A DNA stretch of 64,000 nt, taken from assembly GCF_030851345.1 (NCBI RefSeq), contig NZ_JALPNU010000021.1, positions 1-64,000 on the forward strand. The letters are read 5' to 3'. Shown here in pieces: positions 1,814 through 52,281 of this stretch. A model generated the notes under the pieces. The model worked only from the letters and a program-made list of their open reading frames with translations. It ran no database searches and had not been told where the DNA came from. Origin of the DNA: Marinifilum sp. D714 (GTDB lineage Bacteria; Bacteroidota; Bacteroidia; Bacteroidales; Marinifilaceae). Made by a program: the position numbers and the translations under genes. The first letter of the stretch is position 1, and each line of letters begins with the position of its first letter.

Positions 1814-1909
1814 TTAAAATTTACTTGATATATAAAGTAGTATGGATAAAAGACAGATTGCATAAAGTGCAAATCCAGCCAATGTTTCCTTTTTAATATT
1901 TTTAAGCAT
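1814..1909 (-). CDS. Possible 31-residue membrane peptide coupled to rdhC
   Basis: Its ATG overlaps the stop of the NosR-like gene (the bases ATGCTTAA contain both start and stop), the classic arrangement for translational coupling. The predicted peptide begins MLKNIKKE and then has one uninterrupted hydrophobic helix ending in ISSKF: a basic N-terminus plus one membrane span. No family recognised. It could be a real small subunit or a chance frame. The overlap and the clean transmembrane profile favour real, the length argues for caution. Confidence 0.4.
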   Translation of the reverse strand: MLKNIKKETLAGFALYAICLLSILLYISSKF

Positions 1910-3044
1910 CTTGTTTATGTTTTTGAATTAGCTGTTTAACTTGATTTCTTCTGGCAATTACCCAATTTAAAATGCCACCTACAGGACAAAAGAATCGGCA
2001 AAAGAAATTCGAAAAGAACAAGGCTCCTATGAGTGCTGCAGGCAAAATATACCACTGAATGCCTTCGCCTTTTAAAGAGAACAACATTGCAAAGGGCTCA
2101 TAAGACGATAAACTTGGATTTTGAGATATAAAGATCAGGATCAACGACAACCAAATCAAAAAGTTTGGAGTGAATGCCAAAACTTTCCCAAGTGATTGAT
2201 CCATTTTAATATTAATTCCAGATATTTGATGCAGCAACATTTGACTGGCTCTAAAAGGACAAATGGCGGTACAATACACATTTTTACCCCAAATGATGAT
2301 TATACTTAATGTTGCAGCAACCAGCAGCCACCAGCTTAAATGAGTGTGAATATCCGGAAAGTATCCCAATAATATTCTACCAAAGTGAGTCAGCGAAAGC
2401 GAGGCATTAAATAAAAAGCCAATAAACACCAAGGCTAAAAACAGGTTGAAATATATTAGTTTCTTACTCTTAAAATAGATCGCCAAAAAGGCAATGGTAA
2501 TGATCAAGGCAACAATCCCCTCTTTGGGAGTAAGTCTCCAGCTTTTCTCAATTTGCGGAGTTTCAAGCTGAAATACCTTATGAGCAATTTGGTAGGAAGC
2601 ATCACGCGCTGCATTGGCAATGGCCAGCGAACTCACCGTTGCTCCCGATACGGCTTCTACATCCTTTTTTAATTGAAATTCATCATTCAAACTTTTCTCT
2701 TCGTATTGTTTGTAGTATTTCTTATTGGTTAGTTTTGCAACAAATGATGGTGTTTCAAAGCTTTTAATAAGCTCTGCTCCAATAATTAGTCCACTGGTAT
2801 CGCTTACAACTGCTACCTGCAATGGTCCACCATAACCTTGAGATGAACCTGTTGATAAATATCCATAAGGCTTTTCGTTTTTATAAAGGGGATATATTCC
2901 TTCCTTTGCTTCTTTCAGTTGAAGGTCTTCAGATTGAAGTATTTTTAAATGCTCAAGTTCATGGGAGTGATCGGTAAAGATGATACCATAGCAAAAAGCT
3001 ATGCCCAGACTTATCCAGGCGATCCAATTGATATATTTTTTCAT
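1902..3044 (-). CDS. rdhC: NosR/RdhC-like FMN-binding, iron-sulfur membrane protein
   Basis: A 380-residue membrane protein. An N-terminal helix is followed by a periplasmic FMN-binding domain with SGATVSS at 133-139, where Thr136 is the predicted covalent flavin attachment site. Five or six membrane helices follow, with two NapH/NosR-type CxxxCP motifs (Cys258/262 and Cys349/353). This is the architecture of PceC/RdhC and NosR. PceC-type proteins are thought to pass electrons from quinol through flavin towards the exported dehalogenase, although an assembly role has also been proposed. It is third in the order rdhA-rdhB-rdhC. There is no classical ferredoxin tail after the last CxxxCP. Alternative: an FMN-binding electron carrier for another exported reductase, but the neighbours argue for RdhC. 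Confidence 0.8.
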   Translation of the reverse strand: MKKYINWIAWISLGIAFCYGIIFTDHSHELEHLKILQSEDLQLKEAKEGIYPLYKNEKPYGYLSTGSSQGYGGPLQVAVVSDTSGLIIGAELIKSFETPSFVAKLTNKKYYKQYEEKSLNDEFQLKKDVEAVSGATVSSLAIANAARDASYQIAHKVFQLETPQIEKSWRLTPKEGIVALIITIAFLAIYFKSKKLIYFNLFLALVFIGFLFNASLSLTHFGRILLGYFPDIHTHLSWWLLVAATLSIIIIWGKNVYCTAICPFRASQMLLHQISGINIKMDQSLGKVLAFTPNFLIWLSLILIFISQNPSLSSYEPFAMLFSLKGEGIQWYILPAALIGALFFSNFFCRFFCPVGGILNWVIARRNQVKQLIQKHKQDA

Positions 3045-3232
3045 CTGTTTAAATTTATCTTCATTTGTCAGATGGTCCCGAAAGCTTTCGAGATCACAAG
3101 AAATTCAATCATTTACCTGTGTGTAAATTATATGATTGAATTTACATGTTCGGTTCATGTACTGTATTGAATCCTAATGAATGGAGATCGAAGCCATACG
3201 TATCTATGACTCCGAATCTCCTGAAACAAAAA

Positions 3233-3523
3233 CTATTTGCTTGCCGCTTTTTTTAATGCCAGTTTCCTCGATAAAAGAAGCAGAATGAGCGAAGGAATCA
3301 CGAAAACGATTAATCCCATACTTGCTGCTCTTGGCTCACCTTCAAGTATTGAACTAAAGGACCAGGCGATACCAAATATGAATAAGAAAACCCCAATGCA
3401 GATGCTTATCCATGTAGAGATATTAAATTTCAATTTTTGATTGTAATAATATATGAGTCCTGTGGCAAGAGTGGTGATTACGCCCAGGGAAAAAAACAAT
3501 ATTTCTATACCTGTAAATATCAT
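3233..3523 (-). CDS. rdhB: RdhB-like reductive dehalogenase membrane anchor
   Basis: A 96-residue protein with three predicted membrane helices. Between helices 2 and 3 it has EGEPRAASMG, resembling the conserved E-x-E..AA..G loop of RdhB/PceB anchors. In characterised systems the short three-helix B protein holds the TAT-exported catalytic subunit at the outer face of the cytoplasmic membrane. It lies 67 bp after rdhA and before the rdhC-like gene, the canonical pceABC order. Such small anchors are weakly conserved, so the call rests on length, topology, the loop motif and position together. Confidence 0.75.
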   Translation of the reverse strand: MIFTGIEILFFSLGVITTLATGLIYYYNQKLKFNISTWISICIGVFLFIFGIAWSFSSILEGEPRAASMGLIVFVIPSLILLLLSRKLALKKAASK

Positions 3524-3589
3524 GTGTTTGATTTTTTAAATGTGATTAATATGTATTGCAGTGTGAAGCAACCTGCAATACATTATGCT

Positions 3590-5083
3590 TTAATGTCCAT
3601 CGTAGCTTTTGCCTTCAGGACTGTAGAATTTCTTAATGGATTCCTTGTCTTCTACATTACCATATCCAAAGAGTATATCCATTTCACGCATCAGGTCGTG
3701 CACCGGACCAGGCATTGCTGCCGTAATGCTATCCACCAATCTGTGATGCCAAAAGTCAGGCTTGTTGTACGGACAGGATGCCATACAAATTCCGCAATCA
3801 TCTCCCAATTCACCCCATAGTTTAAAGCATTTTTTAGCATCAACATGATACTTTTTAACGCCCTTCACATTGTACCAGGCATTGTCTTTATTGTCGTGAG
3901 TTGGCTCAAATGATGGTTCTTTATCGAATGAAATGGCTTTGGTTGGACATGCATCGGCACAGCGCATGCAGTTTTTACAAAAATCCATTACGCCGAATGA
4001 CTTTGGCTTGTCGTATTCTACAAAGTCAAAATCGGTATATACCTTTGCCAGTCTAACACGAGGACCATACTTATAAGTAACTGCTTGTCCTAATCTTGAA
4101 GCTTCCCCCAATCCTGCAGCGATAGCATATGGCACACTTAATCCCATATCATTACCGGCAGAAACAGCGTTAAATCCAAGGTTTTTAAGATATACAGCCA
4201 ACTGATAAGGAACTTTTGCCATTTCCGAATAGCCAGCTCCTGCAGCGGCACTTCCTACAAAAGAAGGAGAGGTGGAAATTCCCTCGTAATCCATATTGAA
4301 AGCCAATACAATCACTGTTTTTGGCTCAAAGGGGAAGTCACTCCAGTCGTTAACAAATTTATCAGGTCCCCAATTGTGGAGTTCTTCCATTTGCTCCTTA
4401 CTAGGCGGAGCCAACAATGGTTTTCTGAATAAAGGAGACACAGGGTTCAGGAATTTACTGTAATCCCATCTTTTATCTCTTCGAGTGATTCCTACCAAAT
4501 CAGCACCAAAAAGTTTTGCTGCTCTTTTAATTTGATTGGCTGCCTCTTGTTTACTTTCGAATTGGTATTTCTCTTTTACTACATAGTCGTTATCAAATAG
4601 AGCAAATTGCACCTTATCAGTACGCTGTTCCCATGAATTTACTCCAAAGTTGGGCACTGCAGCCGGACTTGGACCTGCAGCATAATTATTCATGGCCCAG
4701 GCACCAGCTAACAGGGCTTTATCAGCTTGATTGTAACCGATTTTGTCGTTGTCGTAAGCAAAGTTCATTTTCTGAACAAAAGCTTGCCCGTCTGCAACAA
4801 TATCATCTTCTACAGTTTCACCAATTGCCCGTATTTCGTTCACGAAAAACGATCGGGCTTGCACATGATCCCAATTTCGAGGTGGAACATAGTCTGATCG
4901 TACTTCTACGGGAAAATCATCATGTGTGGTTACAATTTTATCCACAAGACGTTTGTCCAATTCTTTGGCTGCAGTTTTTTGCGGAAAAGTAGTTAAGGCA
5001 CCTGCACCAACAGCGGCTGTTATTCCTCCAATTTTAAAGAAATCTCTTCGATTTAACTTTGATGAATTTTCGTTTTTACTCAT
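3590..5083 (-). CDS. rdhA: Reductive dehalogenase catalytic subunit, TAT-exported
   Basis: A 497-residue corrinoid/iron-sulfur reductive dehalogenase. The start at 5083 is chosen because it puts a twin-arginine signal (NRRDFFKIGG, Arg12-Arg13, then a hydrophobic stretch) at the N-terminus; a longer reading begins at 5167. The body matches the PceA core: GADLVGI, then GAGYSEM, SAGNDMG, AGLGEASRLG and GPRVRLAKV. By alignment the PceA catalytic Tyr, Asn and Arg correspond to Tyr285, Asn311 and Arg344. Two 4Fe-4S sites follow: CxxCxxCxxxCP at Cys369/372/375/379, and Cys419 with CGICMASCP (430/433/437). Respiratory RdhA enzymes remove halide from organohalides in the periplasm. Natural halogenated phenols would be plausible substrates in a marine setting, but the sequence does not show the substrate. 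No corrinoid biosynthesis genes are nearby. Confidence 0.88.
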   Translation of the reverse strand: MSKNENSSKLNRRDFFKIGGITAAVGAGALTTFPQKTAAKELDKRLVDKIVTTHDDFPVEVRSDYVPPRNWDHVQARSFFVNEIRAIGETVEDDIVADGQAFVQKMNFAYDNDKIGYNQADKALLAGAWAMNNYAAGPSPAAVPNFGVNSWEQRTDKVQFALFDNDYVVKEKYQFESKQEAANQIKRAAKLFGADLVGITRRDKRWDYSKFLNPVSPLFRKPLLAPPSKEQMEELHNWGPDKFVNDWSDFPFEPKTVIVLAFNMDYEGISTSPSFVGSAAAGAGYSEMAKVPYQLAVYLKNLGFNAVSAGNDMGLSVPYAIAAGLGEASRLGQAVTYKYGPRVRLAKVYTDFDFVEYDKPKSFGVMDFCKNCMRCADACPTKAISFDKEPSFEPTHDNKDNAWYNVKGVKKYHVDAKKCFKLWGELGDDCGICMASCPYNKPDFWHHRLVDSITAAMPGPVHDLMREMDILFGYGNVEDKESIKKFYSPEGKSYDGH

Positions 5084-5143
5084 TGCGTCAATGTTTTTGT
5101 TACAGTTCAAATCTGCAGCTAAAACATTGATATTGCGACAAAA

Positions 5144-5178
5144 CCAATAATTTCGGACGTACTCCAATTTTATCGGAC
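5144..5178. promoter_or_regulatory. Direct-repeat candidate operator upstream of rdhA
   Basis: Two copies of a 15-bp word, 12 of 15 positions identical: CCAATAATTTCGGAC at 5144-5158 and CCAATTTTATCGGAC at 5164-5178. They are in the same orientation with a 20-bp period, about two helical turns, as expected for a dimeric AraC-type activator. They lie 61-95 bp upstream of the chosen rdhA start, between the AraC gene and rdhA. Confidence 0.5.
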
Positions 5179-5206
5179 CATCAATTGCCTCATTTTAAAT
5201 CGAAAA

Positions 5207-6295
5207 CTATTCGAGTTCTTTCAAGAATTGGGAGGGGGTTTGATTGGTGAATTTTTTAAAAGCAGCATTAAAGGTAGCTTTCGATTTAAATCCAGCCTCG
5301 AAGGCCAATGCCAATATGGTGTAATTCTTGTATGCTTCCAGTTTCGATAAACGCTTAAATTCCTCAACTCTGTAATTGTTGATATAATCATTAAAACTTT
5401 GATTCATTAATCCATTCATGGTTTCTGAAATCTCATGGGAAGAGATGTTACATTGCTGAGAGAAACTTGACAAGTTCAGATCTGGATCAAGATATGGCTT
5501 TTCACTTTCCATAAGCTGATTCATTTTGATTACATTCTTTTCGGCCAATTCGCGGGTAAGTTTCGATTTGTCATATTTTTTGAATCCACCTAATCCTACT
5601 TTTTCGGTGCTTAAATGCAAAGTTCTGGGTTCACTTACAATTACATAGGAAATGGCATAGCCCAAAAACATCAAAAAACTCAGGTTAATGATATCCATGG
5701 TGGCTTCGGAACCTGATACAAAGAGTGGGAGATTGGTTTTAATTTCAAGAATAACAAAATGCAAACTCATCATGAAGCAAAGCAACTTAATCAGGCCTGT
5801 TCTTTTCTTGTTGTAATTAAATATACTTAGCGACATTCCTTTGATTTGATAAAAATTCCCAATCATCTTTAAAATCAAGAAAGGATAAATCAGGGAAAGG
5901 GAAACAAGAATGTTTTTTGCAATTAGTAGATATGTACTTTTTAGCGAATTGGTATTCAGATATAAAATAAAGATGACTCCGTTTATTAAGAAAGGAAGCA
6001 GATGTAATAAACTTACTTTTGTGAATTTAAGTTTTCCATACAATACCGACATTACATAGTAATATACCACCAGAGGAGCCATAGTGGCAATAGGAACTAC
6101 GCTGTAGGGCCAATTTGAATCTAATGCGATAAATCCTTTATAAAAGAAATAGTAGTAAACGTAGTGGAATATAATATTAATGAATATAAGCTTTAAAATA
6201 AAGTTAGGCAGAGTTCTGAATTTTTTACGCAGCAATATCAGGATCAAACCAATAATTTGGGCTGAACAAAAAAGAATCAAATAGGGAATATTCAT
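5207..6295 (-). CDS. Membrane-embedded AraC-family regulator (7TM-AraC)
   Basis: A 362-residue protein. Roughly residues 1-225 form seven hydrophobic helices; the C-terminal ~110 residues are an AraC/XylS DNA-binding domain with two helix-turn-helix units, ending in FEAGFKSKATFNAAFKKFTNQTPSQF. Such proteins sense a signal in or across the inner membrane and act directly on DNA. It lies on the same strand directly upstream of rdhABC, 124 bp from rdhA, with a direct repeat in the gap, so control of the dehalogenase operon is likely but inferred. Known rdh regulators are CprK/FNR, MarR or two-component types, so this arrangement is atypical. Confidence 0.85.
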   Translation of the reverse strand: MNIPYLILFCSAQIIGLILILLRKKFRTLPNFILKLIFINIIFHYVYYYFFYKGFIALDSNWPYSVVPIATMAPLVVYYYVMSVLYGKLKFTKVSLLHLLPFLINGVIFILYLNTNSLKSTYLLIAKNILVSLSLIYPFLILKMIGNFYQIKGMSLSIFNYNKKRTGLIKLLCFMMSLHFVILEIKTNLPLFVSGSEATMDIINLSFLMFLGYAISYVIVSEPRTLHLSTEKVGLGGFKKYDKSKLTRELAEKNVIKMNQLMESEKPYLDPDLNLSSFSQQCNISSHEISETMNGLMNQSFNDYINNYRVEEFKRLSKLEAYKNYTILALAFEAGFKSKATFNAAFKKFTNQTPSQFLKELE

Positions 6296-6398: not shown

Positions 6399-6989
6399 TT
6401 ACAACCTGACTGCCAATCCTAATGAAAATGCACTGTTTTTTGCATCAGAGTTCACTTTATCCTCATTAAATAGTTTATTAATGCCGTGGTAATACCTTGC
6501 TTGTATACAAAATTGATCATTTATTTCATATTCCATTCCTACTACAGCTCCATAGTCAAAATCTTCAAAAGTATCTCCACTAATTTCATCATTGACAACT
6601 GGTAAATACAAATCTTCAGGATCTTCGTTTGAACGAATTAAAAATCCTAGTTGTGGTCCGAATACAAACTTAAATTGTTGGAAGTTTCTTAATTTGAATT
6701 GAATCAGTAGTGGGACGGTAATATAATCCAAGTCAATTGTAACCGATTCTCCATTTACATGATCTCGAAAGCCCTGCATGGAGTAATTGATTTCTGTCTG
6801 AAGGCTTGTAATATCACTTAACCGATAGGTGAGCATTCCTCCTGCATAGGCTGCAAATTTATAATTACCTCCATTATCTTCTCCTTGGTAATTCCCTAAA
6901 TTAAATCCGCCCCTTATTCCAGCTTGAAATTCTTGAGCAATTAGTAATGTAGGCACAAGCAAAAATACCAGTACAATTAGTTTTTTCAT
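6399..6989 (-). CDS. Outer-membrane beta-barrel protein (porin family)
   Basis: A 196-residue precursor with a signal peptide (MKKLIVLVFLLVPTLLIAQ) and then alternating amphipathic strands (GIRGGFNLGNY, AYAGGMLTYRL, GLAVRL at the C-terminus). This matches the small Bacteroidota barrel family often called PorT-like or outer membrane protein beta-barrel domain. Substrate unknown. It lies about 100 bp upstream of the AraC gene on the same strand and could be cotranscribed with it, though its family is so common that the link may be fortuitous. Confidence 0.8.
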   Translation of the reverse strand: MKKLIVLVFLLVPTLLIAQEFQAGIRGGFNLGNYQGEDNGGNYKFAAYAGGMLTYRLSDITSLQTEINYSMQGFRDHVNGESVTIDLDYITVPLLIQFKLRNFQQFKFVFGPQLGFLIRSNEDPEDLYLPVVNDEISGDTFEDFDYGAVVGMEYEINDQFCIQARYYHGINKLFNEDKVNSDAKNSAFSLGLAVRL

Positions 6990-15035: not shown

Positions 15036-15893
15036 TCATATTTCAAGAATATCTATATCAGCTTGCACAAAAATATTTTTGGCAAAATTCATTTCTTCAG
15101 TGTTTGCTTCTCTTAAAAAAGAAAACTCTTTTCTGATGCCATGATTTCGCATCTTAATTAAAGTTTTTCCAACATTAGGAGATACCGATTTCATTAGCCT
15201 GGCAATTTCTCGCAATTCACTTTCGTCATTATTGTAATTGGGAGTCAAAACAAAACGAAGTTCCTTCAGCTTGTTTTTATCGTTTAAGTATTCAATTGAT
15301 TTTAAGACCTTCTCGTTAGAATAGCCTGTTATTTGCTTGTGTGTTTTAGCAGAATATGCCTTGATATCCAGCATTACGCCATCAATTAAGGGGAGGAGAG
15401 ACTCCCATTCTTCCTGCTCGATATTCCCGTTGGAATCAATTAAAATGGATAAATGTTTTAAGTCGTAATGCAATTTGATTTCTTGAAATAACAAGCCTAA
15501 GAATGGAGCATGAAGCATTACTTCCCCACCTGATACGGTAATACCCGAAATAAAATCCTTTACTTCAAGAATTTCAGAAATAATATCCTCAACCGACATT
15601 TGTTTGTAAAAAGGGCTACTGTTTTCAGGACAAACATTAAGACATTCATCACAACGCGTGCAAGTGTTCTCGTTGTGGATGATTCGTTTGTTTTTAGAAT
15701 CAATTTGCAAACTGTTTGTGGGACATGTATCAACACAAGTGCCACACAAATTGCACAATCCTATGGTGTGGGAATTGTGGCAATACATACAGTTTAAATT
15801 GCATTCCTGAAAGAAAATAACCATGCGATTACCTGGTCCATCAATCACACTCGATTTGATTATTCCACTAATATTTGCTTGCAACTTGCTCAT
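15036..15893 (-). CDS. yjjW: Glycyl-radical enzyme activase, YjjW type
   Basis: A 285-residue radical-SAM enzyme. CNLNCMYC (Cys31/35/38) binds the SAM cluster, and an inserted ferredoxin-like segment (~47-90) carries two further CxxCxxCxxxC sites (CNLCGTCVDTCP and CTRCDECLNVCP). These activases abstract hydrogen from the conserved glycine of their partner, which lies immediately upstream and overlaps by 26 bp. Length and layout fit YjjW/PflA-like activases. Oxygen-sensitive, so expected to work under anoxia. Confidence 0.9.
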   Translation of the reverse strand: MSKLQANISGIIKSSVIDGPGNRMVIFFQECNLNCMYCHNSHTIGLCNLCGTCVDTCPTNSLQIDSKNKRIIHNENTCTRCDECLNVCPENSSPFYKQMSVEDIISEILEVKDFISGITVSGGEVMLHAPFLGLLFQEIKLHYDLKHLSILIDSNGNIEQEEWESLLPLIDGVMLDIKAYSAKTHKQITGYSNEKVLKSIEYLNDKNKLKELRFVLTPNYNNDESELREIARLMKSVSPNVGKTLIKMRNHGIRKEFSFLREANTEEMNFAKNIFVQADIDILEI

Positions 15894-17409
15894 TGGAAAT
15901 TACTCTTTTCGAAACACGATTGTCTACATTGGCATTGTCCATAGAATTGGCCGCAAACAGAGCACTGCCATATCTTGATCCTTCTTCTCGGAACTCTTTT
16001 AAATCGCTTCTTCGAACCAAATATCCGGTAATACGGATAAACTCACCATTCGATAAATTAAAGGTAAACATTCTCATCCCTTTTTTAAATGCACCTTTGA
16101 TAATATCCACAATTGCCGAAGGATTTCTTTTCACTGTTTCATCAAAGTGGAAAATATCACTAATTCCACCATTAAACAGGTGATGATGTGGAGCTACTGT
16201 GTTAATATGTGTATAGATATCAGGCTCACTTCCAATTGGAATTCGAGCTCCAGCACTTTCCTCTATATCAATATCGATACCTGATTGAGCATGAAAAAAA
16301 GCTTTGCCATTATTTCCTTTGCAGTAAGGAAGCTCCCTTGCATCCACAATTTTCTTCATTTCTTCCAAAATAAGATGTGCAAGCTGATTGGCTTCTTTAT
16401 CTTTTCCATAGCTAAGTTCCTTACCACTGCGTTTCATCAATTGGTTTACACATTCGGCAAGACCATAAAAACCAAACATAGCTGAGAAGTTATCCAGGGA
16501 AATAATTCCTTCTTTGGCAAGAAAATCTGTATCGTAATACTTAACACATTCTACCAGGTATTTGCTTCTTGCTTCGATAACATCCAATGTCATCTCACAA
16601 TATTTTTTCAATGTACCAGATATGAAACTTTCAGCATTACCACTGTGTAAATCCGTTATCTTTTTAAGATTTAAACGAATAAGAGTATGAGAACCACCAC
16701 CTACAGGCAAAGAGTTGTAACAACTCACTACACCATATTCTCCTTTAAAATCAGAAGTAGTCATTTTGTGATTGGCAATATGTGGTTTTGCTACTTCAAA
16801 TACGGTTTTGTTGGCCTCAAGCAGAAGTTCATCGGATGTAATTTCCGGATCGTATTTTAATGTAAGGTTCGGAACAACCTGTTTTAATTCCCGTTCAATT
16901 CTTAAAATTACTCTGGCAATTGCATTGTCTTCTGGTCCTATGTTGATATGAACAAAAGCATCAGGAAGCGTTCGGTCGATGAATCTCCAAAACAGTTTCA
17001 ACTTATTGTAGATCTCTTCTTCTGATAAATCACCAACATAATCAAGTAATAATGTATCGATATTACCAAGGTATACTGAATATCCAGTAATAGAAGGAAC
17101 CTGAATATAGAGTATCGATAGAAAATTAATCGCCTCATCGAAATTTGTAGGAGGTTCTAACTCAAGATAGTTTACTCCATTTTTTAAGGCGTAGGCATAA
17201 TCAGGTAGAACATATCTCGGACGATAAGGAGCATTACCTTCAAATAGGTCACAAATAATTTTCTCGTTTAAGGCTTCAGTTGCTTCTTTGGAGATGACAG
17301 GATAATCTTGTGTGCTTTCTGCAATGTAAGCCAAATGATGCTTTTTTTGTCGATAATCTAAATTACCATCGGTAAGAACTTGTAATACTCTATCTTTAAT
17401 TTCTTCCAT
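15868..17409 (-). CDS. yjjI: YjjI-family glycyl-radical enzyme
   Basis: A 513-residue protein, close to the ~516 residues of E. coli YjjI. The glycyl-radical loop RITGYLVR sits near the C-terminus with Gly462 as predicted radical site. The ATG at 17409 is preferred to an in-frame TTG at 17430. YjjI is a short, divergent relative of pyruvate formate-lyase whose reaction is not established. The downstream activase overlaps it, so the two form one operon. The conserved carboxy-terminal region and many Cys/His residues look intact. Confidence 0.9.
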   Translation of the reverse strand: MEEIKDRVLQVLTDGNLDYRQKKHHLAYIAESTQDYPVISKEATEALNEKIICDLFEGNAPYRPRYVLPDYAYALKNGVNYLELEPPTNFDEAINFLSILYIQVPSITGYSVYLGNIDTLLLDYVGDLSEEEIYNKLKLFWRFIDRTLPDAFVHINIGPEDNAIARVILRIERELKQVVPNLTLKYDPEITSDELLLEANKTVFEVAKPHIANHKMTTSDFKGEYGVVSCYNSLPVGGGSHTLIRLNLKKITDLHSGNAESFISGTLKKYCEMTLDVIEARSKYLVECVKYYDTDFLAKEGIISLDNFSAMFGFYGLAECVNQLMKRSGKELSYGKDKEANQLAHLILEEMKKIVDARELPYCKGNNGKAFFHAQSGIDIDIEESAGARIPIGSEPDIYTHINTVAPHHHLFNGGISDIFHFDETVKRNPSAIVDIIKGAFKKGMRMFTFNLSNGEFIRITGYLVRRSDLKEFREEGSRYGSALFAANSMDNANVDNRVSKRVISNEQVASKY

Positions 17410-17583
17410 TCTTCTACTTTCTACATTCAATTCAATCCAACGGATTTTAATGCCTCAAAAATATACAAAAGAATGTAGGGCAATACAAGAAATCAGAAAA
17501 TATATTAAGAATGAATATTTTGTTTGGTTCACCAATTAAGTTTTTACTATTTTGCAGCTAAGAAATCAATTAGGATAGCTTAA

Positions 17584-51679: not shown

Positions 51680-51699
51680 AGACGCAAGGCCTTGTGTCT
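51680..51699. repeat. REP-like palindrome A at the RAYT start
   Basis: AGACGCAAGGCCTTGTGTCT, a 20-bp near-palindrome of the same pattern as two copies inside the gene. The only usable start codon of the transposase, GTG at 51694-51696, lies in its right arm. Confidence 0.65.
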
Positions 51700-52281
51700 G
51701 TACAAGATAAATTCCCAAATAAATACCGCATAGCCAGCGCCCGATTGAAGGATTGGGATTATGGTTGCAATGCCATTTATTTTGTGACCATTTGCACCCA
51801 TAAACGGGAACATTACTTTGGTGAAATCATCGATGGCAAAATGCAATTGAATGCGATAAAGGAAATGGTGCAGAAAGAATGGATAAAAACACCCGAATTA
51901 AGGCCAGATATGAATTTGGAATTGGGCGAATTTGTGGTAATGCCCAATCATTTTCATGCCATCATCACCATCGGCAAAAACAAATACAATACACGTATAG
52001 ACGCGATGCCTCGCGTCTATACGTTTGATCAAACCAAAAATAACAAAGACGCCAGGCATGGCGTCTCTACCTTTGGGGCGCAATCGAAAAATTTGGCATC
52101 CATTATTCGTGGGTTCAAATCATCGGTAACGGTAATGGCTCGCAAAACAAATCCCAAATTCGCATGGCAATCCCGATTTCACGATCACATCATCCGCGAT
52201 TTTGATTCCTACCACCGAATAGAACAATACATCCAGAATAATCCTGCCAGATGGAAAGAGGATGAATATACATCACCATGA
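51694..52281 (+). CDS. REP-associated tyrosine transposase (RAYT, Y1/IS200-like)
   Basis: A 195-residue Y1-type HUH nuclease. Conserved parts are NKYRIASARLKDWDYG and YFVTICTHKREHYFG, the HUH motif in MPNHFHAIITI, IIRGFKSSVT, and QSRFHDHIIRDFDSYHRIEQYIQNNPARW, which holds the likely catalytic Tyr. RAYTs cut and join DNA at REP hairpins. Start must be GTG at 51694, because an in-frame stop lies 21 bp upstream. Between the HUH motif and the next conserved block the frame reads through two REP-like palindromes, giving a low-complexity insert (RIDAMPRVYTF and KDARHGVST). The frame is intact, so the protein may still work. Confidence 0.88.
   Translation: MSVQDKFPNKYRIASARLKDWDYGCNAIYFVTICTHKREHYFGEIIDGKMQLNAIKEMVQKEWIKTPELRPDMNLELGEFVVMPNHFHAIITIGKNKYNTRIDAMPRVYTFDQTKNNKDARHGVSTFGAQSKNLASIIRGFKSSVTVMARKTNPKFAWQSRFHDHIIRDFDSYHRIEQYIQNNPARWKEDEYTSP
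51993..52024. repeat. REP-like palindrome B within the RAYT frame
   Basis: Perfect 14-bp arms ACGTATAGACGCGA / TCGCGTCTATACGT around TGCC. Core AGACGCGATGCCTCGCGTCT matches the copies at 51680 and 52047 in length and pattern. Confidence 0.8.
52047..52066. repeat. REP-like palindrome C within the RAYT frame
   Basis: AGACGCCAGGCATGGCGTCT: 8-bp perfect arms around GGCA. Third member of the 20-bp family with consensus AGACGC-n-A-K-GC-M-T-n-GCGTCT; the two n positions pair differently in each copy. Confidence 0.75.

Follow-up and report, generated by a model that had tools for sequence, protein, structure and literature searches.

A stretch of 64,000 nucleotides (nt) from contig NZ_JALPNU010000021.1 of Marinifilum sp. 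D714, here called the window, carries at positions 1814-6295 an rdhABC operon for a reductive dehalogenase (RDase), preceded by a gene for a protein with seven transmembrane helices (7TM) and an AraC-type DNA-binding domain. Our best reading of the catalytic subunit RdhA, drawn from sequence and model comparisons, is a menaquinol:organohalide oxidoreductase, and we hold this assignment with high confidence. Taken as a whole, the locus is likely to serve a Marinifilum-type bacterium as an inducible operon for respiratory reductive dehalogenation. The enzyme is not new: respiratory RDases of Marinifilum have already been published (PMC12908670, PMC12090745), and it adds one more member to that family. 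The newer part is the operon-specific 7TM-AraC protein together with a candidate operator, which we have not found described as such in the literature searched. The features of the locus, in order of transcription, are as follows.

5207..6295, minus strand: putative 7TM-AraC regulator, 362 amino acids (aa), seven hydrophobic helices (about residues 3-221) and an AraC/XylS DNA-binding domain (about 280-359, HTH_18)
5144..5178, minus strand: candidate operator, tandem direct repeat GTCCGATAAAATTGG / GTCCGAAATTATTGG with copies 20 bp apart, from sequence comparison of AraC-rdhA gaps
3590..5083, minus strand: rdhA, catalytic subunit of a respiratory-type reductive dehalogenase, 497 aa, TIGR02486, RRDFFK, two 4Fe-4S motifs
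3233..3523, minus strand: rdhB, membrane anchor, 96 aa, three helices, EGEP loop with Glu61 and Glu63
3183..3221, minus strand: stem-loop directly 3' of rdhB, from folding of five Marinifilum-type sequences, the window included
1902..3044, minus strand: rdhC, NosR/RnfG-like membrane flavoprotein, 380 aa, SGATVS, CTAICP, CRFFCP
1814..1909, minus strand: 31-codon open reading frame (ORF) encoding a single hydrophobic helix, 8-nt overlap with the end of rdhC, homologs in other loci

The operon and its genomic context

All of these features lie on the minus strand, in the order 7TM-AraC, rdhA, rdhB, rdhC and 31-codon ORF. The complete rdhABC operon with a 7TM-AraC gene that an earlier note had recognized from the sequence is therefore present at 1814-6295. 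The gaps measure 123 nt between AraC and rdhA, 66 nt between rdhA and rdhB, and 188 nt between rdhB and rdhC. The ORF listing offers a TTG at 5167, inside the candidate operator, as an alternative start of RdhA; the ATG at 5083, which we have taken as the start, is conserved and gives 497 aa in the five Marinifilum orthologs as well. Over its whole length RdhA is 98% identical to the proteins of Marinifilum flexuosum, M. sp. D737 and M. fragile, 97% to that of M. breve, 93% to that of Marinifilum sp. N1E240, and 83% to that of an uncultured Carboxylicivirga metagenome-assembled genome (MAG). By this measure the host is Marinifilum-like, RdhA being 93-98% identical in five named Marinifilum genomes. 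The ratio of nonsynonymous to synonymous substitution rates (dN/dS) is 0.013-0.031 for rdhA in three within-genus comparisons of Marinifilum, of which one approaches saturation, and 0.022-0.025 for the AraC gene in two comparisons, a third being saturated. On sequence comparison the operon is real, intact and under selection.

For comparison, 80 loci were fetched by similarity to RdhA. Labels beginning with L denote loci, L035 being that of genome G275. Among 393 genomes of the order, 28 pass the cut-off of the NCBIfam reductive dehalogenase profile TIGR02486. In only four of these (G347, G275, G335 and the window genome) does the match start near the beginning of the model, the others starting from position 61 or later, and none of the four other same-family genomes in this sample passes. 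The window genome has two further relatives of RdhA: a QueG-like gene on contig C40 (L003, assigned by its TIGR02486 match and its sequence) and a hybrid-type RdhA with transmembrane (TM) helices on contig C50, which at 143 bits lies below the TIGR02486 cut-off. We searched the window genome for four families with which the operon would fit, and all are present above cut-off: TatC (225 bits), ApbE flavin transferases (two, 293 and 283 bits), CobQ (487 bits) and MenA (273 bits). A search for a plasmid home of the cassette, using RdhA, matched 14 of 72,556 plasmid records, none at 80% coverage and all at less than 60% identity, so that the search gave no sign of one.

RdhA resembles PceA in sequence, residues and predicted fold

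RdhA scores 208.6 bits against TIGR02486 (cut-off 160.35). It has the Tat motif RRDFFK and the Fe-S motifs CKNCMRCADACP and CGICMASCP, judged by the definitions RRXFXK and CXXCXXCXXXCP / CXXCXXXCP in the accessible text of PMC6797604; the Pfam TAT_signal score of 16.4 is below its cut-off of 22.7. By sequence the nearest solved structures are 8q4h (PceA of D. hafniense, DhPceA; E = 5.7e-76) and 4uqu (1.4e-45), while NpRdhA (1.6e-18) and the best QueG (3.1e-5) are more distant. The catalytic residues map as RdhA Tyr285/Asn311/Arg344 = DhPceA Tyr337/Asn363/Arg396 = SmPceA Tyr246/Asn272/Arg305, and in an alignment of 50 RdhA sequences the tyrosine and asparagine are invariant and the arginine nearly so. 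The TAT signal, PceA-like Tyr/Asn/Arg triad and two 4Fe-4S sites noted earlier are thus borne out by motifs and residue mapping.

The AlphaFold model of RdhA (50-row alignment, pLDDT 87.1) aligns with 8q4h at Z = 39.9, with 36% identity across 391 aligned residues. Z is 34.3-35.1 for the S. multivorans PceA entries, 29.4-30.0 for NpRdhA and 13.3-13.9 for QueG. The predicted structure is a PceA fold in which the catalytic residues occupy their expected positions. Six corrinoid contacts are listed for DhPceA, of which Asn68 falls outside the compared piece; two of the remaining five are identical in RdhA (Lys399 = Lys347 and His461 = His413). At the quinone site, Lys489 = Lys441, His495 = His447, Asp515 = Asp469 and Tyr520 = Tyr474 are kept. 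The published proton-transfer proposal for the PceA2B2 complex involves His495, Asp515 and Tyr520 together with Glu61 and Glu63 of PceB, and all five are present in the RdhA and RdhB of the window.

In a 64-row tree the window sequence pairs with M. flexuosum (100/84); N1E240 (100/100), the Carboxylicivirga MAG (100/99) and G275 (100/100) are added in successive steps. This clade lies far from QueG, the hybrids and NpRdhA, the QueG of the same genome standing on a branch of 5.2. Two outcomes had been named beforehand as refuting, a grouping with QueG-like proteins and a model lacking a corrinoid pocket, and both checks favored the dehalogenase reading: the tree and the Z values set RdhA apart from QueG, and the model shows the fold of PceA. 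Around the window clade the deeper forks of the tree stay open (16 of 61 inner branches), and the rows of NpRdhA, SmPceA and QueG are long; we therefore name no sister among the characterized RDases.

RdhB, RdhC and the 31-codon ORF

RdhB has hydropathy segments at residues 6-24, 35-53 and 66-84, with E61-G-E63 between helices 2 and 3 in the sequence LEGEPRAASMG; the numbering of the two glutamates is that of PceB. Gly14, Trp54, Glu61 and Gly70 are invariant among 25 aligned sequences, and Glu63 is not. RdhC agrees with the family definition given in the accessible text of PMC5928378, namely an [S/T]G[A/S]TX[S/T] flavin motif, two CX3CP motifs and multiple TM helices: it has SGATVS, CTAICP, CRFFCP and the helices, and scores 47.8 bits for FMN_bind (cut-off 22). 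The same text already lists RdhC in Bacteroidetes. The motifs of both proteins agree with the EGEP-containing three-helix anchor and the covalent-flavin NosR-like protein, in A-B-C order, that had been read from the sequence before. Homologs of the 31-codon ORF follow rdhC in six other loci (L035, L043, L045-L048), and none was seen there in L049, L050 or L051. The ORF matched no Pfam family, and its dN/dS is 0.12-0.18 (two comparisons with few changes).

The stem-loop 3' of rdhB, of 16 pairs, is kept in the five Marinifilum-type sequences folded (four different, two being identical). Among its changes one pair is compensatory, two are one-sided, and one pair is broken in one sequence; L048 and L035 fold differently at this position. 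Since pceAB is transcribed above pceC in Desulfitobacterium (PMC10624902), the stem-loop may by analogy set the level of the AB transcript above that of C. The gap between rdhB and rdhC (3045-3232 in the window) is 188, 171 and 188 nt long in the window, L043 and L045, and its extra part can form a second strong hairpin. We assign no role to this part because the gap is only 74 nt in L046 and L047. A palindrome in the gap, TCGAAAGCTTTCGGGA, was considered as a member of a repeat family and set aside, its exact form occurring once in the genome.

Fused forms of these proteins were seen in other loci. L038:8660-10360 (minus strand), apparently the same place as L054:3015-4715 (plus strand), encodes a natural RdhB-RdhA fusion of 567 aa, with three helices and an EGVP loop, a Tat-like RRNFLG, and a full RdhA related to that of the window, with RdhC behind; it is unlike the published hybrid type, which lacks the Tat motif. 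Likely RdhB-RdhC fusions of 506-508 aa, matching both proteins, occur in three deltaproteobacterial MAGs (L058:8872-10395, L059:2009-3529 and L061:7655-9172), each beside a separate RdhB. The hybrid-type TM-RdhA on contig C50 of the window genome (L040:7666-9036, minus strand, 457 aa) has no Tat motif and lies between seemingly unrelated genes.

The 7TM-AraC protein accompanies a subset of rdh operons

The DNA-binding domain of the AraC protein is matched by HTH_18 (50.8 bits, cut-off 33.6) and HTH_AraC (34 bits, cut-off 26.6). A hydropathy scan finds six distinct segments ahead of it at a strict threshold and seven at a lax one, and the model (9-row alignment, pLDDT 70.0) has seven long helices before the HTH domain. 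When the model was compared with the PDB, the 50 entries shown were all G-protein-coupled receptors (GPCRs), nearly all aligned over about residues 1-230 of the model at Z = 12.4-14.5, although models made up largely of helices can score Z = 14 with no clear relative. The GPCR-like arrangement of helices in the predicted membrane part is therefore a hint only.

In eight loci (L043-L049 and G275) a clear ortholog (46-97% identity over nearly the full length) immediately precedes rdhA on the same strand, and in L050 a 32% homolog occupies that place. A less biased test than loci chosen by RdhA is a search of the 393 genomes of the order. With at most five candidates scored per genome, the protein scored 773 bits in its own genome and 462 in G275, with no more than 117 in any other, and both matches above 117 bits adjoin this type of operon. 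The best paralogs in the window genome reach 66 bits. Because only the home genome and G275 exceed 117 bits and the paralogs at home stay at 66, the ortholog group is specific to this operon type. The 7TM-AraC architecture itself is more widely spread, as matches of about 30% identity show. Compared with the window, L049 is 49% identical in AraC and 46% in RdhA, and L048 is 46% identical in AraC and 83% in RdhA. The flanking genes are unlike among L043, L048, L049, L050 and L035, and so the AraC-rdh cassette seems to move as a unit.

Two neighboring observations concern the surroundings of the cassette. A gene for an outer-membrane beta-barrel protein (6399-6989, minus strand) has the AraC gene on one side and, on the other, a gene with a sub-threshold GreA/GreB match; M. 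flexuosum (L043) does not have it at that place. Short proteins resembling IS200/REP-type (Y1) transposases are encoded in G275 (L035:5220-5780, plus strand; judged by eye), directly beside the rdh cassette, and in the window (51694-52281, plus strand), where the match falls just below the Pfam cut-off (21.7 against 23).

A candidate operator between AraC and rdhA

AraC/XylS factors bind tandem direct repeats about two helical turns apart. When the AraC-rdhA gaps of seven loci were lined up, they shared ACGTCC with an A/T-rich tail, 77-84 nt before the ATG of rdhA; in the window the ACGTCC of the second half-site begins 77 nt before the ATG. The remainder of the gap is not conserved in this way. 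The window and L049 have the same 16-mer ACGTCCGAAATTATTG, though their AraC and RdhA proteins are less than 50% identical, and taken as a 17-mer it has one exact occurrence in the 4.77-Mb genome. The only other near-copy of the core in the genome (at most two mismatches) is inside a reading frame and was set aside. The degenerate pattern that we used was written from five of these gap sequences, so that zero mismatches there arise by construction. Over five loci, two of them from one genus, the best second copy of the core at offset -20/-21 has a mean of 10.2 matches out of 16, against 6.8 for the best non-overlapping offset. Four control gaps without this AraC gave repeats equaled by 61-249 of 300 shuffles.

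The earlier note had proposed the AraC protein as an unusual regulator of the rdh genes. Synteny and the candidate operator support the link, and on these grounds we consider control of rdhABC by this protein probable.

Relation to published systems

The closest characterized complex is PceA2B2 of D. hafniense TCE1 (8q4h), which shares with the window operon the A-B-C gene order, the fold, the catalytic Tyr/Asn/Arg, the quinone-site His/Asp/Tyr and the RdhB glutamates. It differs in coming from another phylum and in several corrinoid- and quinone-contact residues; moreover the window operon is preceded by the AraC gene, and there is no pceT among the neighboring genes scanned in the window.

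A nearer relative is bin.4-RDase, from a Marinifilaceae MAG of Aarhus Bay (PMC12908670). The primers B4RD-734F/B4RD-864R match best in the rdhA of the window at nt 734 and 845 (15/20 and 14/20) and at the same two positions in three other Marinifilum (17-18/20 and 15-16/20). The best match of all is in L048 (19/20 and 16/20, at 722 and 833), and in L049 the primers are out of register (12/20 each). Because the positions of these 40 primer bases match, bin.4-RDase is very probably the ortholog of the RdhA of the window in another species. In the accessible text of that paper an RdhB stands beside it, and the regulator upstream of it has Btr as its nearest match. Btr, an AraC-type name, is also the second NCBIfam match of our AraC protein, far below cut-off. 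The paper, dated 2026, reports in its accessible text that a Marinifilaceae rdhA was induced 1.65 x 10^3-fold at 30 min after addition of 2,6-dibromophenol and that all six Marinifilum genomes examined there, bin.4 included, encode respiratory RDases, and it proposes Marinifilum and Ancylomarina as candidate organohalide respirers. A word search of its main text gave no hit for 'AraC', '7TM', 'promoter' or 'operator'; 'transmembrane' occurs there solely in a reference. PMC12090745, as far as accessible, describes RDase genes in Marinifilum and transcribed Bacteroidota RDases. The earlier note had remarked that respiratory organohalide reduction is best known in Chloroflexota, Firmicutes and Proteobacteria; after these two papers its occurrence in Bacteroidota is no longer a surprise.

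Hybrid RDases with N-terminal TM helices are reported for three Marinifilum species in the accessible text of PMC6797604. The genus is the same, and the C50 protein of the window genome (L002/L040) is of that kind; the hybrids differ from the RdhA studied here in having neither a Tat motif nor a separate RdhB, and belong to a different clade. Organohalide-responsive regulators of rdh genes are known in CprK, of the CRP-FNR type (PMC2610375), and in a two-component system of Sulfurospirillum (PMC7755780); going by the accessible parts of these papers, both differ from the single AraC-family membrane protein found here. Our literature searches for membrane-bound or 7TM AraC proteins, made with narrow terms, found nothing, and one for AraC in connection with organohalides and rdhA listed a single Sulfurospirillum paper.

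Proposed mechanism and alternatives

By homology, the Tat system would export RdhA with its corrinoid and two 4Fe-4S clusters, and RdhA would dock on RdhB at the outer face of the cytoplasmic membrane. Menaquinol would be oxidized at the RdhA-RdhB interface as in PceA2B2, using Lys441, His447, Asp469 and Tyr474 of RdhA and Glu61 and Glu63 of RdhB. Electrons would then pass through the two clusters to cob(I)alamin, and halide would be removed from the organohalide, with Tyr285 as the probable proton donor and Arg344 stabilizing it. The substrates would most likely be natural marine bromophenols, since the published ortholog responds to 2,6-dibromophenol. RdhC is presumably an accessory covalent-flavin protein of uncertain role. 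Synteny and the repeat suggest that the helices of the 7TM-AraC protein sense a signal, probably an organohalide or other membrane-soluble compound, and that the protein activates rdhABC by binding the tandem repeat at 5144-5178.

Several observations weigh against parts of this scheme. RdhA scores 12 bits for PF13486 ('Dehalogenase'), under the cut-off of 24.3. That family is not defining, as a 391-residue piece of the proven DhPceA also misses it (19 bits); among five relatives L048, L049, L060 and L079 miss and only L117 passes (117.3 bits). As a genome probe PF13486 gave no match in the window genome and none in 14 controls, and TIGR02486 was used in its place. Three corrinoid contacts of DhPceA are changed in RdhA (His395 to Val, Asn454 to Val and Ser479 to Gly); these positions vary, since SmPceA retains only Lys399 of the five compared. 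Only four of nine listed quinone-site residues are identical, the others being replaced (Ser486 to Pro, Trp487 to Tyr, Ala498 to Asp, Arg499 to Ser and Ala511 to Met). The published induction comes from a consortium and concerns a gene of another species, its orthology resting on the 40 primer bases; according to the accessible text of PMC12908670, BLAST searches of the MAGs of that study gave no significant homolog of pceA or tceA. For the regulator, 72 of the 80 loci have no AraC match at E = 1e-3 in the fetched flanks, and the choice of all 80 by RdhA favors finding AraC beside it. The RdhA of L051 is about as close to that of the window as is that of L049, yet L051 has no AraC ortholog; because it and 71 other loci outside L043-L050 lack one, the AraC protein is not general to this enzyme type. 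The gap of L050 has no match to the operator element within two mismatches. In single-locus tests, shuffles did as well as the real gap in 2 of 300 cases for L049, the only clear result, and in 22 for the window, 69 for L047 and 95 for L043. In L045, L048, L035 and L050 (33, 125, 212 and 106 of 300) the best repeat is elsewhere or weaker, elsewhere for the first three.

How far do these points favor other explanations? That RdhA is a QueG-like or other non-dehalogenating corrinoid protein is very improbable: there is a weak match to TIGR00276 (QueG; 31.1 bits, cut-off 200), but the genome has a separate QueG-like gene, and tree distance, PDB matches and fold all favor PceA. The QueG and catabolic readings were set aside after the profile, PDB-sequence, tree and fold comparisons. 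The enzyme might still be non-respiratory, detoxifying halogenated compounds or reducing some other substrate, with RdhC rather than the quinol site donating electrons. A covalent-flavin protein does follow, five of the nine quinone-site residues differ (Arg499 included), and no Marinifilum isolate with demonstrated growth by organohalide respiration is mentioned in the accessible texts of PMC12908670 and PMC12090745. We nevertheless think this unlikely, given the Tat motif, an RdhB with both glutamates and the retention of Lys441, His447, Asp469 and Tyr474, whereas the catabolic NpRdhA is cytoplasmic (PMC10624902). Somewhat less unlikely, though still doubtful, is that rdhABC works as proposed while the AraC protein has another target or is carried along as a passenger, the rdh genes responding to another signal through, for example, HrcA or SigW, stress regulators suggested for other marine RDase genes in the accessible text of PMC12090745. 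Other Bacteroidota rdh loci have MarR-family (L041, L042) or TetR-family (L081) neighbors, L051 does without the ortholog, and the order contains long AraC matches of about 30% identity without this operon. Against this, the AraC-rdh pairing recurs in genomes whose flanks differ, the available comparisons show strong purifying selection on both, and the intervening element is conserved while the rest of the gap is not.

Respiratory dehalogenation under AraC control is our preferred reading. A more specific version of it, which we put forward tentatively and think less likely than not to hold in full, is that the AraC protein is a one-component organohalide receptor, in which a GPCR-like seven-helix domain would bind halogenated aromatics within the bilayer, and a fused DNA-binding domain would switch rdhABC through the 20-21-bp tandem repeat. 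If true, this would be a class of regulator for which we have found no earlier description in organohalide respiration, and it would have to work on DNA while fixed in the membrane.

Another gene of the window

Away from the operon, the window encodes a YjjI-like glycyl radical enzyme (15036-17430, minus strand; PF11230, 673.7 bits), and the adjoining radical-SAM protein is probably its activase.

Implications

Marinifilum is a culturable genus of marine Bacteroidota, and an intact rdhABC found across it offers isolates in which organohalide respiration could be tested outside the classic phyla. The putative regulator and its candidate operator provide a defined test of how marine bacteria may sense natural organohalides. 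Should the protein indeed be a membrane receptor with an AraC domain fused to it, it would give rdh genes a new route of input.

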